DNA of 37,643 nucleotides from contig JACQFZ010000023.1 in the NCBI GenBank assembly GCA_016199745.1, positions 1 through 37,643 of the forward strand, read 5' to 3'. A program made the translations under genes and the position numbers. Source of the DNA: Gammaproteobacteria bacterium (GTDB lineage: Bacteria; Pseudomonadota; Gammaproteobacteria; Acidiferrobacterales; Sulfurifustaceae). The notes under the pieces were generated by a model. It did not search any database, was not told the DNA's origin, and worked only from the letters and a program-made list of their open reading frames with translations. Shown here one piece after another: positions 26,017 through 31,747 of this stretch; the first letter of the stretch is position 1; each line of letters opens with the position of its first letter.

Positions 26017-28035
26017 TTATAGCAATGGCACGATCATCAGCGCGACGATATTAATAATTTTAATCATCGGATTGATCGCCGGTCCGGCCGTATCTTTATA
26101 AGGATCGCCGACGGTATCGCCAGTGACCGCCGCTTTATGCGCGTCCGAGCCCTTACCGCCGTGTTTACCGTCTTCGATGTATTTTTTGGCGTTGTCCCAG
26201 GCACCGCCACCGGTGGTCATGGAAATAGCGACGAAAATACCAGTGACAATGCTGCCGACCAGCATCGCCCCCAGCGCTTCGCGGCCGAGCGTGAAGCCGA
26301 CGACGATCGGCGCCAGCACCGGCAGCAGCGACGGCACAATCATCTCCTTGATCGCCGAGCGCGTGAGCATATCGACCGCGCGCGAATAATCCGGCTTGGC
26401 CTTGCCGGTCATGATGCCCTTGATCTCTTTGAACTGCCGCCGCACTTCGACGACGACACTGCCGGCAGCGCGACCGACCGCTTCCATTGCCATGGCACCG
26501 AACAGATACGGAATGAGACCGCCGATGAAGAGACCGATGATCACGTTCGGATCCGACAGCGAGAACTCGGCGGCTTTACCGGCGTGCTTCAAGGCGTCGG
26601 TGTAGTCGGCGAACAGCACGAGTGCCGCCAGGCCGGCCGAGCCGATAGCGTAGCCCTTGGTCACTGCTTTGGTGGTGTTGCCGACGGCGTCGAGTGGATC
26701 GGTGACATCGCGCACTTTCTTCGGCAGCTCCGCCATCTCGGCGATGCCACCGGCGTTGTCGGTGACGGGGCCGTAAGCGTCGAGTGCGACGATGATGCCG
26801 GTCATCGACAACATCGAGGTCGCGGCGACAGCGATGCCGTACAGATCGGCGAACGCATGCGCACCGTAGATGGCGAGGCAGACAGCGATCACCGGCAGCG
26901 CCGTCGACTTCATCGACAAACCGAGGCCGGCGATGATGTTGGTGGCATGACCCGTGACCGACGCCGCGGCGATACCACGCACGGGTTGGTACTCGGTCGC
27001 CGTGTAGTACTCGGTGATGACCACCATCGCTGCTGTCAGCAACAGGCCAATTAGCGCGGCGCCGTAGAGTTGCAGCGTCGTGTAGTGCCCGTTGCCGGCC
27101 ATCAGATGGTCGGTGACGAAGTAAAAGGCGATGGCCGAGATCACACCGGCGACGATCAAGCCGCGATAGAGCGCGCCCATAATCCGGCCCTTGCCGCTGG
27201 TTTTAACGAAGAAGCTGCCGATGATGCAGGCGATGATCGAAACGCCGCCGAGCACCAACGGATACAGCACCACATTGCCGAAGTCCGGCATCAATAAGCT
27301 GCCGAGCAGCATTGCGGCGATGATGGTGACGGCGTAAGTCTCGAACAGATCAGCCGCCATGCCGGCGCAGTCGCCGACGTTGTCACCGACGTTATCGGCG
27401 ATCACGGCTGGATTGCGCGGGTCATCTTCCGGGATGCCGGCTTCGACCTTGCCGACCAAATCGGCGCCGACGTCAGCGCCTTTGGTGAAGATGCCGCCGC
27501 CCAAGCGCGCGAAGATCGAAATCAGCGAGCCACCGAAGGCGAGGCCAATTAGCGGCCGGACGATTTCGGCTTCAGTGCCGGGATATAACGATTTCAATAT
27601 GGCGTAGTAACCGGCCACCCCCAAAAGCCCGAGGCCGACTACTAACATGCCGGTAATGGCGCCTGAGCGGAATGCAATCTGCAGCGCCGGATTCACCCCG
27701 TCTTTAGCCGCCTCGGTTGTGCGCACGTTGGCGCGGACCGAGATGTACATACCGGTATAGCCCGCCAGCGCCGAACAAATAGCGCCGATGGCGAAACCGA
27801 CAGCGGTGGGGATTTTTAAGGTAACGAGGATGATGACAAACAGCAGAACGCCGACGACGCCGATGGTGGTGTACTGACGGTTGAGGTAAGCCGATGCGCC
27901 TTCTTGGATGGCTGCGGCGATTTCCCGCATACGCTCGCTGCCGGTTGGCTTGGCGAGCACCCATCGGATGGAAGCGCCGCCGTAGATAAGCGCGGCACCT
28001 GCGCACAGCAGTGCGAAGATCAAGCTTTGAGACAT
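26017..28035 (-). CDS. hppA: K+-independent H+-pumping pyrophosphatase
   Basis: 672 residues, about 16 membrane helices. It hydrolyses PPi and pumps protons. The catalytic loop is clear: [20 protein letters not shown], then [20 protein letters not shown] and [14 protein letters not shown]; a second site has [17 protein letters not shown] and a third [19 protein letters not shown]456 in [10 protein letters not shown] is the Lys that replaces the K+ ion in K+-independent enzymes (known from Carboxydothermus A460K work), so this pump should not need K+. H+ rather than Na+ transport is inferred from that subclass. GGGGGAAGGC precedes the ATG. pfp lies 166 bases upstream on the same strand. Confidence 0.95.
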
Positions 28036-28201: not shown

Positions 28202-29467
28202 TTAGACTGTGAAATCCGTGGCGAGCTTTTTCTTGACCGCCACGTTCTTGAGTTGAACGTACTGCGGCAAGCCGTTCTTATACGGCGGGTAGTCTTCACC
28301 TTGAATGAGCGGCGCCAGATAGGCGCGGCACTTGGCAGTGATGCCGAAGCCGTCTTCGGTGATGAATTCGCGCGGCATCTTCTTCTCGACGTTGGCGACC
28401 TTGTTGAGATCGGCGACACCGATCGCCCACTTGTACGGCTTGTTCGATTTGCGCGCAATCGTCGGCATAACGGCGCTCTTGCCTTTCGCCGCCAGCTCGA
28501 CCGCGGCGCGCCCGAGCGCATAAGCCTGCTCGACGTCGACCTTCGAGGCGATATGGCGTGCGGAACGTTGCAGATAATCGGCGACCGCCCAGTGGTACTT
28601 GTAGTTCAGCTTGCTTTTCACGAGCTGCGCCACTACTGGCGCCACGCCACCGAGTTGCGCGTGACCGAACGCGTCGCGGGTACCGGCTTCGGCTAGGAAC
28701 TTGCCGTCGGCATTGCGCACACCTTCGGAGACGACGATACAGCAGTAACCGTATTGCTTGACCGTTTCGTCCACCTTGGCAACGAATTTGTCTTCTTCGA
28801 ACGGCAACTCCGGGAACAGGATGATATGCGGCGCATCCCCGGCCTTCTCGGCGGCGAGGCCGCCGGCAGCCGCGATCCAGCCGGCGTGCCGGCCCATGAC
28901 TTCCATTACGAACACCTTGGTCGACGTCTTCGCCATCGACGCGACGTCGAAACCGGCCTCGCGGATGGAGACGGCAACATACTTGGCGACACTGCCGAAC
29001 CCAGGACAGTTGTCGGTAATCGGCAGGTCGTTGTCGACCGTCTTCGGTACGTGTACGGCGACGATCGGGTAGCCCATCGTCGCCGATAACTGCGAGACTT
29101 TGAGGCAGGTATCAGCCGAGTCGCCGCCACCGTTGTAAAAGAAGTAACCGATGTCGTGGGCTTTGAAAACTTCGATCAGGCGCTCATATTGAGCGCGGCT
29201 CTGTTCCAGGCCCTTGAGCTTAAAGCGGCACGAGCCAAAGGCACCGCCCGGCGTATAGCGCAGGCCACGGATGGCGGTGACGGATTCTTTGCTGGTGTCG
29301 ATCAGGTCTTCGGTGAGGGCGCCGATGATGCCGTTGCGGCCGGCGTAAACTTTGGCGATCTTGGATTTGTATCTGCGGGCGGTTTCGATCACGCCGGCGG
29401 CGGAGGCATTAATGACGGCGGTGACCCCGCCTGATTGGGCGTAAAAGGCATTCTTGGCTTTGGCCAT
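28202..29467 (-). CDS. pfp: Pyrophosphate-dependent 6-phosphofructokinase
   Basis: 421 residues of the PFK family. It transfers phosphate between PPi and fructose 6-phosphate, reversibly, in glycolysis and gluconeogenesis. The phosphoryl-donor loop is GGGDSADT (113-120), with D116 at the place of the ATP-type Gly. PKTVDND (141-147) has Lys in place of the Gly of PGTIDND in E. coli PfkA. Both are known PPi-type determinants. MGRHAGW (191-197) is the fructose-6-phosphate site. AAAGGACC lies before the ATG. It sits beside hppA, another PPi enzyme, and is divergent from adk. Confidence 0.92.
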   Translation of the reverse strand: MAKAKNAFYAQSGGVTAVINASAAGVIETARRYKSKIAKVYAGRNGIIGALTEDLIDTSKESVTAIRGLRYTPGGAFGSCRFKLKGLEQSRAQYERLIEVFKAHDIGYFFYNGGGDSADTCLKVSQLSATMGYPIVAVHVPKTVDNDLPITDNCPGFGSVAKYVAVSIREAGFDVASMAKTSTKVFVMEVMGRHAGWIAAAGGLAAEKAGDAPHIILFPELPFEEDKFVAKVDETVKQYGYCCIVVSEGVRNADGKFLAEAGTRDAFGHAQLGGVAPVVAQLVKSKLNYKYHWAVADYLQRSARHIASKVDVEQAYALGRAAVELAAKGKSAVMPTIARKSNKPYKWAIGVADLNKVANVEKKMPREFITEDGFGITAKCRAYLAPLIQGEDYPPYKNGLPQYVQLKNVAVKKKLATDFTV

Positions 29468-29633
29468 GTAGCAACGGTCCTTTCGTTTCGTTTATCTCTA
29501 GCGCCGGGCTGGGCCCGGGGCGGAGCAAGATTACCCAATCAGTAGTGCATCGTCACGGACGATTTGTAAGGTGTAATGCCAACACAGGCGTGTTTAAAGT
29601 GCGGTAACTTGTTGCCCGCTCACGAAAATACCA

Positions 29634-29662
29634 TTGACGTCAAATTGGCGAGATTGTAGGTT
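29634..29662 (+). promoter_or_regulatory. Candidate sigma-70 promoter of adk
   Basis: TTGACG (29634-29639) and TAGGTT (29657-29662) with a 17-base spacer. The -35 fits well, the -10 poorly. It would give a leader of about 60 bases before the ATG at 29729. It is one candidate in the 261-base divergent gap between pfp and adk. Confidence 0.35.
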
Positions 29663-29728
29663 ACCGCGACCCTGAAAAGACCGGGCCAATGCCGGTTAAA
29701 TAGCCAGCCAACGGGAAGCGAGAAAAAC

Positions 29729-30649
29729 ATGCGAATTGTGTTACTAGGCGCGCCAGGATCCGGGAAAGGAACACAGGCTAAGTTACTGGGGGAGAAGTAC
29801 AAAATTCCCCAGGTGTCGACGGGGGACCTGCTGCGAGCGGCGGTGCAAACAGGCACCGAGCTCGGTCGCAAGGCCAAAGCGGCGATGGACGCCGGCCAGT
29901 TGGTCTCCGACGATATTGTCCTCGGTATCATTCAAGAACGACTTTCTAAAGCGGATGCGAAAGCCGGTTTTGTGCTCGACGGCTTTCCGCGCAACATTCC
30001 GCAGGCACAGTCGCTCGATGCGACACTCGCCCGCCTCGGTCAGCCGCTGCAATTAGCGCTGCTGGTCGATGTCGATAGCGAAGTGCTGATGAAGCGCATC
30101 ACCGGCCGCCGCAGCTGTAGCCAGTGCGGTGCTATCTTTAATATTTATTTTGCCGCGCCCAAAGTCGCCAACAAGTGCGATAAGTGCAACGGTTCGTTGA
30201 CGCAACGCTCCGACGACAACGAGGCGACCGTGAGCAGCCGTTTGAAAGTGTACGAAGAACAAACGGCGCCGCTGGTTTCTTACTATCGAGCGCAAGGCAA
30301 GCTGCGGACCGTGCGCGGCGTCGGCGGCATCGGCGATATCTTCAAGAACATCACCGATATCGTCGAGGCGCAAATTCGGCCGCTGGCGGCAGTGATGAGC
30401 CAGACTGCCGCACCTAAGCCGAAAGCGGTTGCAAAGGTGGCCGCGGCGAAGGCCGATACCAAAAAGGTGGACGCCAAAAAGGTCGATACGAAAAAGGTAG
30501 AGCCGAAGAAAGCCGAGAAGAAACCCGTGCCGGCACCGGCAAAGAAGGCCGCCAAGCCGGCACCGAAAAAGCCAGCGCCCAAAAAAGCGGCACCGAAGAA
30601 GGCTGCCAAGAAAGCGGCAAAGAAAGCGCCGGCCAAGAAAAAGAAGTAA
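29729..30649 (+). CDS. adk: Adenylate kinase with Cys4 LID and Lys/Ala/Pro-rich C-terminal tail
   Basis: 306 residues against a usual 214-220. The core (1-220) is a complete adenylate kinase: GAPGSGKGT (8-16), TGDLLRAAV, DGFPRN (84-89), and RLKVYEEQTAPL. It interconverts ATP, ADP and AMP. The LID carries C130/C133 and C150/C153, the zinc Cys4 form common in Gram-positives and absent in E. coli Adk. From about residue 224 a tail of 83 residues with about 31 lysines follows, rich in KKA, KKV and PAPK units, like bacterial H1/AlgP-type tails. The tail DNA (30398-30646) continues in frame to the stop. It probably binds nucleic acid or another polyanion (inference). A terminator follows. Confidence 0.95.
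   Translation: MRIVLLGAPGSGKGTQAKLLGEKYKIPQVSTGDLLRAAVQTGTELGRKAKAAMDAGQLVSDDIVLGIIQERLSKADAKAGFVLDGFPRNIPQAQSLDATLARLGQPLQLALLVDVDSEVLMKRITGRRSCSQCGAIFNIYFAAPKVANKCDKCNGSLTQRSDDNEATVSSRLKVYEEQTAPLVSYYRAQGKLRTVRGVGGIGDIFKNITDIVEAQIRPLAAVMSQTAAPKPKAVAKVAAAKADTKKVDAKKVDTKKVEPKKAEKKPVPAPAKKAAKPAPKKPAPKKAAPKKAAKKAAKKAPAKKKK

Positions 30650-31747
<1,098 letters not shown>

Follow-up and report, generated by a model that had tools for sequence, protein, structure and literature searches.

Adenylate kinase (Adk) is a textbook soluble housekeeping enzyme. The solved zinc-lid Adks (best-scoring 5g3y; also 1zin) have the complete core, P-loop, lid cysteines and conserved arginines that are also found in the protein described here. 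Among 94 matching solved chains, the 60 for which lengths were listed measure 187-245 aa, whereas our Adk reaches 306 aa because of a tail.

Tails of a similar kind occur in the Pseudomonas proteins AlgP and PhaF. According to the AlgP report, DNA is bound in vitro by KPAA peptides and by a fragment of the C-terminal domain, the protein is located on polyphosphate granules, and its C-terminus, likened to histone H1 in composition, is required for granule spacing (PMC9239181). In a second report, the PhaF tail is thought to bind DNA (PMC3574117). Both proteins share with our Adk a disordered C-terminal domain rich in Lys, Ala and Pro, but their N-terminal domains are different and they are polyphosphate- or PHA-granule proteins rather than enzymes. 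The units also differ, being KPAA in AlgP and PhaF and KKA or APKK in the Adk. The C-terminal tail of eukaryotic histone H1 has the same Lys/Ala/Pro composition and disorder, and such low-complexity sequence allows no claim of homology.

Long Adks have already been curated in a database, as the PRK13808 model (NF010381, 335 positions) shows, and this Adk too has a Lys/Ala-rich C-terminal tail, for which the search results for the model name no function. Our protein scored 194.4 bits against NF010381, under the cut-off of 426, and so falls outside that family. PRK13808 exceeded its cut-off in seven of 249 genomes from the phylum, all with family code f193, which we take to be Bradyrhizobium-like alphaproteobacteria; the tails were read directly at five of the seven loci above the cut-off (L205 and L208 were left out). 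By eye, the PRK13808 core is of the short-lid type without lid cysteines, unlike that of our Adk, and because of this difference the alphaproteobacterial tail was apparently gained separately. Among housekeeping enzymes, the C-terminal end of the valine--tRNA ligase model PRK14900 (NF011492) matched Adk residues 201-305 at 17.5 bits (E 0.0007; cut-off 1783), which is a likeness of composition only with an unrelated enzyme. We found no published description of a Lys-rich-tailed Adk in the openly accessible literature, a search that left out most subscription journals. Our protein joins a known enzyme to a tail of a known kind, and we did not come across a description of this pairing.

Results

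A complete zinc-lid adenylate kinase

The window, by which we mean the whole 37,643-nucleotide stretch of contig JACQFZ010000023.1 that was analyzed, carries adk at positions 29729-30649 of the plus strand, with an ATG start, 306 aa and a stop at its end. Residues 1-223 (29729..30397, plus strand) form a complete zinc-lid adenylate kinase core, most of the final C-terminal helix included. The adenylate kinase model NF001380 aligns to residues 1-214 with 295.5 bits (cut-off 251) and PF00406 to residues 5-190 with 184.8 bits (cut-off 26.8), and the protein scored 251.8 bits with TIGR01351 (cut-off 168) and 57.7 with ADK_lid (cut-off 26.6). With all curated cut-offs exceeded and the key residues present, it belongs to the bacterial long zinc-lid type, and the initial annotation, made from the sequence alone, was right to call the kinase core complete.

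The same residues are conserved in the tailed relatives described below. Of 98 aligned tailed rows, near copies counted, no fewer than 96 keep positions 7, 9, 10, 12, 13, 36, 88, 123, 130, 133, 150, 153, 160 and 171. Each of residues 7-15, which we take to be the P-loop, of R36, R88, R123, R160 and R171, presumably the conserved arginines, and of C130, C133, C150 and C153, presumably the lid cysteines, is found in at least 93 of the 98 rows. An AlphaFold2 model based on 25 aligned tailed Adks had a block-mean pLDDT of 84-97 up to residue 220 and placed the last helix at residues 201-226.

The source genome is 98% complete (4,256,067 bases in 72 contigs) and contains only one Adk match, so this is very likely the housekeeping Adk, and phosphotransfer activity is likely for the same reason. 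The gene likely encodes an enzymatically ordinary adenylate kinase. Second copies were counted in 63 tailed genomes of our own choice, all at least 95% complete (G014 and G023 also qualified and were left out): 31 had no second Adk match and 32 had one or more. The two second copies that were read, L191 in genome G004 and L190 in genome G223, were both tailless. Where a second Adk is listed, it is about half identical to the tailed core.

A lysine-rich tail predicted to be disordered

The core is followed by a Lys-rich C-terminal tail, residues 224-306 (30398..30646, plus strand), predicted to be disordered and similar in composition in relatives. Its 83 residues contain 31 Lys, 24 Ala and 12 Pro, compared with only 15 Lys in residues 1-223, and include KKA (six times), KKV (three), APKK (three) and PAPK (two); the KPAA tandem array is absent from the tail sequence. 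AlphaFold2 predicted no helix or strand past residue 226, and the block-mean pLDDT was 43-53 from residue 231 on. A Pfam search with the tail at E 0.01 gave no match, the H1 family being likewise absent from the Pfam matches. At the DNA level the tail contains short (12-15 bases), imperfect tandem repeats. In being a Lys/Ala/Pro-rich, low-complexity C-terminus with predicted disorder, it has the makeup of the AlgP, PhaF and H1 tails. The initial annotation had reported 83 extra residues with about 31 Lys in KKA, KKV and PAPK units, a count borne out here, and had likened them to AlgP/H1-type tails, a likeness that holds for the Lys/Ala/Pro composition.

Occurrence of the tail in the order and the class

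We found an adk match in 52 of 56 order-level relatives, and all 52 frames span at least 304 aa when measured from stop to stop with upstream codons included. The four genomes without a match are 75-89% complete. The tail residues were read in 37 of the 52 and are Lys-rich in these, a comparison with close relatives that the initial annotation had proposed; the other 15 are known from frame length alone. A class-wide sample gave an adk match in 216 of 230 genomes. The loci fetched from it were the best matches down to ~228 bits and, below that score, a few whose frames were long, and the match listing reaches down to ~192 bits, so that tails on more distant Adks could be missed. Among the fetched loci, 88 were tailed and 26 tailless; tails of at least 60 aa occurred in 40 family codes, no fetched family held both states, and the longest Lys-rich tails reached 316 aa. 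Fourteen Methylophaga-type loci (L042-L055) have a similar core of 215 aa without a tail. Locus L175, with a tail of 45 aa and 18% Lys, was counted as tailed in the trees and left out of the family-code count, and L188 (a cut frame, with an Ala/Glu/Pro-rich tail and some Lys) and L198 were excluded.

Several tails depart from the simple Lys/Ala pattern. In L153, L165 and L168 the Lys-rich part is internal and the protein ends in a charged, probably helical segment (coiled-coil-like by eye). In L123, L127, L170 and L178 the plain Lys/Ala repeats are preceded or replaced by regular units of greater length in which Lys and Glu alternate and which may be helical. Part of the L182 tail is an Arg/Gln/Trp repeat, still basic, that resembles the same repeat read in a different frame.

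Frameshift and compositional bias as origins of the tail

A genome-wide lysine bias was ruled out. We sampled 338,097 bases of the source genome, made up of the window and 20 contig stretches, and called ORFs of at least 80 aa mechanically from ATG. A single one of the 770 ORFs had a Lys content of 25% or more over 60 residues, and this was the tailed Adk. The same count in genome G006 gave two of 1102. The tailless second Adks L190 and L191, lying in the same genomes as tailed ones, also show that the tail is not a matter of genome-wide bias. Genome G006 further encodes a 145-aa protein (L273:13777-14211, plus strand) with a Lys/Ala/Pro-rich N-terminus and a weak match to EF-Tu domain 2 (22.1 bits, below the cut-off of 30.3).

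A protein search of the source genome with the tail as query (E up to 10) returned the Adk and one weak match. The control performed poorly: at E up to 0.01, two of 20 genomes gave a match, neither of them to an Adk tail, although 19 of the 20 carry tailed Adks. Because the control failed, we give the genome-wide tail search no weight.

A frameshift or chance extension was likewise ruled out, by the long frames in relatives and by the tail dN/dS given below. The initial annotation had stated that the tail is not a chance extension, and had named relatives lacking it, with a frameshift in this one gene, as what would overturn its view. Within the order this is not the case, since all 52 matched relatives are long-framed, and the low dN/dS of the tail agrees with the original statement.

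Charge and composition are held under purifying selection

The tail statistics were restricted to tails of 60 aa or more that end in a stop and are free of masked letters. The resulting 83 complete tails are 79-316 aa long, with 17-54% Lys (median 34%) and a net charge of +24 to +113; each contains 0-4 W, F, Y or C residues (median 0). In 15 close pairs, which we chose and some of which have a member in common, the dN/dS of the core was 0.02-0.19 in all 15, and that of the tail was 0.03-0.31 in the 12 pairs in which it was defined, values that depend on an uncertain alignment of low-complexity sequence; tail dS exceeded 1 in four of these 12, and dN/dS was undefined in the other three pairs. 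The tail evolves faster than the core in these pairs. Lysine was retained at 66-100% of the aligned Lys positions (e.g., 22/24, 27/27 and 88/89; at the least 19/29). What is held in the tail under purifying selection is charge and composition, not sequence, and the tail is a genuine part of the protein on which selection acts.

Evolutionary history of the tail

On a quick tree of 151 rows, 97 of the 102 rows of one gammaproteobacterial clade were tailed. A more careful tree used 104 of these rows, leaving out near copies, very long branches, distant outgroups, two masked rows and one contig-end row (L039, whose frame runs off its contig and which was labeled as having no tail on the quick tree). 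It recovered one clade in which 72 of 78 rows were tailed (support 92/85). Each tree needed six label changes, against a mean of 27.4 for shuffled labels on the careful tree; the well-supported branches alone force three changes on the quick tree and five on the careful one. Three rows (L175, L179 and L184) lay outside the main tailed clade on the quick tree and inside it on the careful tree, and their placement is unsure. The shortened C-terminal end of L184 is still basic, being Arg/Ser/Gly-rich.

The simplest reading of these trees is one old gain followed by about five losses or shortenings, and the weakly supported deep branches together with the three shifting rows make more than one gain possible. 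Since the tail was lost or shortened in several lineages, it would not be indispensable.

Gene neighborhood

In the window, adk is divergent from pfp, which encodes a pyrophosphate-dependent 6-phosphofructokinase (28202..29467, minus strand; NF010675, 665.4 bits, cut-off 273), and beyond it lies hppA, for a membrane-bound ion-translocating pyrophosphatase (26017..28035, minus strand; NF001951, 1142.3 bits, cut-off 859). The next gene downstream of adk is hemB, for porphobilinogen synthase (30725..31747, plus strand; NF006762, 508.5 bits, cut-off 297). The initial annotation described the tail as coded continuously up to a stop and a terminator. The ORF is indeed intact, and the terminator-like hairpin (30670..30695, plus strand), whose 11-pair stem begins at 30670, 21 bases past the adk stop, and is accompanied by a T-rich stretch, is a consensus match only, from a scan of positions 29450-30800 that returned six sites on both strands against 2.0 expected.

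Among the 87 tailed loci whose upstream sequence covers 1.1 kb or more, 74 have divergent pfp, versus 5 of 25 tailless loci. The upstream sequence covers 2.6 kb or more at 33 tailed loci, and 17 of these show hppA upstream on the pfp strand; hemB lies downstream at 43 of the 69 tailed loci for which 900 or more downstream bases are available. Counted on tree rows, pfp stood beside adk in 58 of 69 tailed versus 5 of 32 tailless rows. Once descent is corrected for, these counts do not favor a functional link between the tail and pfp over common inheritance (sign test over five independent pairs, median p 0.5). We regard hppA-pfp-adk as an old gene neighborhood, with a possible link to pyrophosphate metabolism.

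Discussion

We propose that this protein is an Adk with a disordered polycation tail that acts as a charge-based tether, most likely to nucleic acid, a reading to which we assign a probability of about one half. In this model what matters in the tail would be its charge, with no particular sequence needed: Lys pairs separated by Ala, Pro or Val would grip cellular polyanions loosely, through many contacts at once, holding the enzyme near the polyanion while its active site remains free. The likeliest partner would be nucleic acid, that is, nucleoid DNA and/or RNA and ribosomes, and the tether would keep ATP/ADP/AMP exchange local to nucleotide-using sites. DNA binding would be carried over to the tail by composition only, since the KPAA register seen in AlgP is missing from it. 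Polycations of any kind bind acidic membranes, polyphosphate and nucleotides as well, and the tailed Adk of one cell may use more than one polyanion partner.

Polyphosphate was among the partners suggested in the initial annotation, alongside the nucleoid and ribosomes. The tail would then bind polyphosphate and hold Adk at granules, in the manner of AlgP, where PPK enzymes turn over AMP and ADP. The source genome does carry both PPK1 (C57) and PPK2 (C48), so this partner stays possible for our Adk; AlgP, with a tail of similar composition, is reported to be located on polyphosphate granules (PMC9239181), and PPK1 is also missing from one lineage (G125, G245) that lies inside the clade but has lost its tail. 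As a general partner, however, polyphosphate becomes less likely. In the set of 63 near-complete tailed genomes (95% or more), 21 have no PPK1, four of which have PPK2, so that the tail is kept in 17 genomes without either enzyme, the single-contig genome G006 included. Nor is PPK1 rarer in tailless genomes, where it is present in 14 of 17 versus 42 of the 63 tailed ones. The absence of both enzymes from 17 of 63 tailed genomes favors a universal partner, namely nucleic acid, and we consider binding to polyphosphate unlikely as the role of the tail. Binding to acidic membrane lipids, which would place Adk beside energy-coupling proteins such as the neighboring membrane pyrophosphatase, appears quite improbable: polycations in general bind anionic lipids, and adk adjoins pfp and often hppA, but the tails have almost no aromatic residues for anchoring in a bilayer, the link to pfp is not separable from descent, and 11 of 69 tailed rows have no pfp neighbor.

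A tail that tethers nothing is the other alternative. It could serve as a local electrostatic funnel, a solubility aid or a regulatory site, for example through modification of lysine, a residue that is widely modified; in the predicted structure it starts directly after the last core helix. We doubt this reading, because tails that range fourfold in length and drift in sequence are better explained by multivalent tethering than by a regulatory site of fixed form, and a charge of up to +113 seems beyond what the steering of substrates would need. The tail could also be neutral, a product of Lys-codon repeat slippage tolerated by selection. The 12-15-base repeats in its DNA, its faster change relative to the core and its loss or shortening in some lineages would agree with this, but its retention in 72 of 78 clade rows and in 40 family codes, a dN/dS of 0.03-0.31 where defined, its standing as the one Lys-rich case among 770 ORFs of the genome sample and the presence of a tail again in another class make neutrality very unlikely.

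Returning to the tether, we put forward, more tentatively, a wider version of it in which the main Adk has perhaps been anchored to nucleic acid since the common ancestor of the clade. It would provide position-fixed buffering of the energy charge at the nucleoid or at RNA and ribosomes, would have been reinvented in alphaproteobacteria and would be kept by charge, not sequence.

The age and breadth of the tailed Adk, an enzyme of many sulfur-oxidizing bacteria and their relatives, are the main finding of this work. A polycation tail in 40 family codes, carried by the sole Adk found in 31 of 63 genomes, suggests that the position of this enzyme matters. The set of tails offers a natural series of charge-conserved, sequence-free tails in which selection on disordered polycations can be studied. 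If the proposed tether is true, deletion of the tail with the enzyme kept would be a direct genetic handle on an old question, whether bacteria keep their adenylates in balance uniformly or locally.
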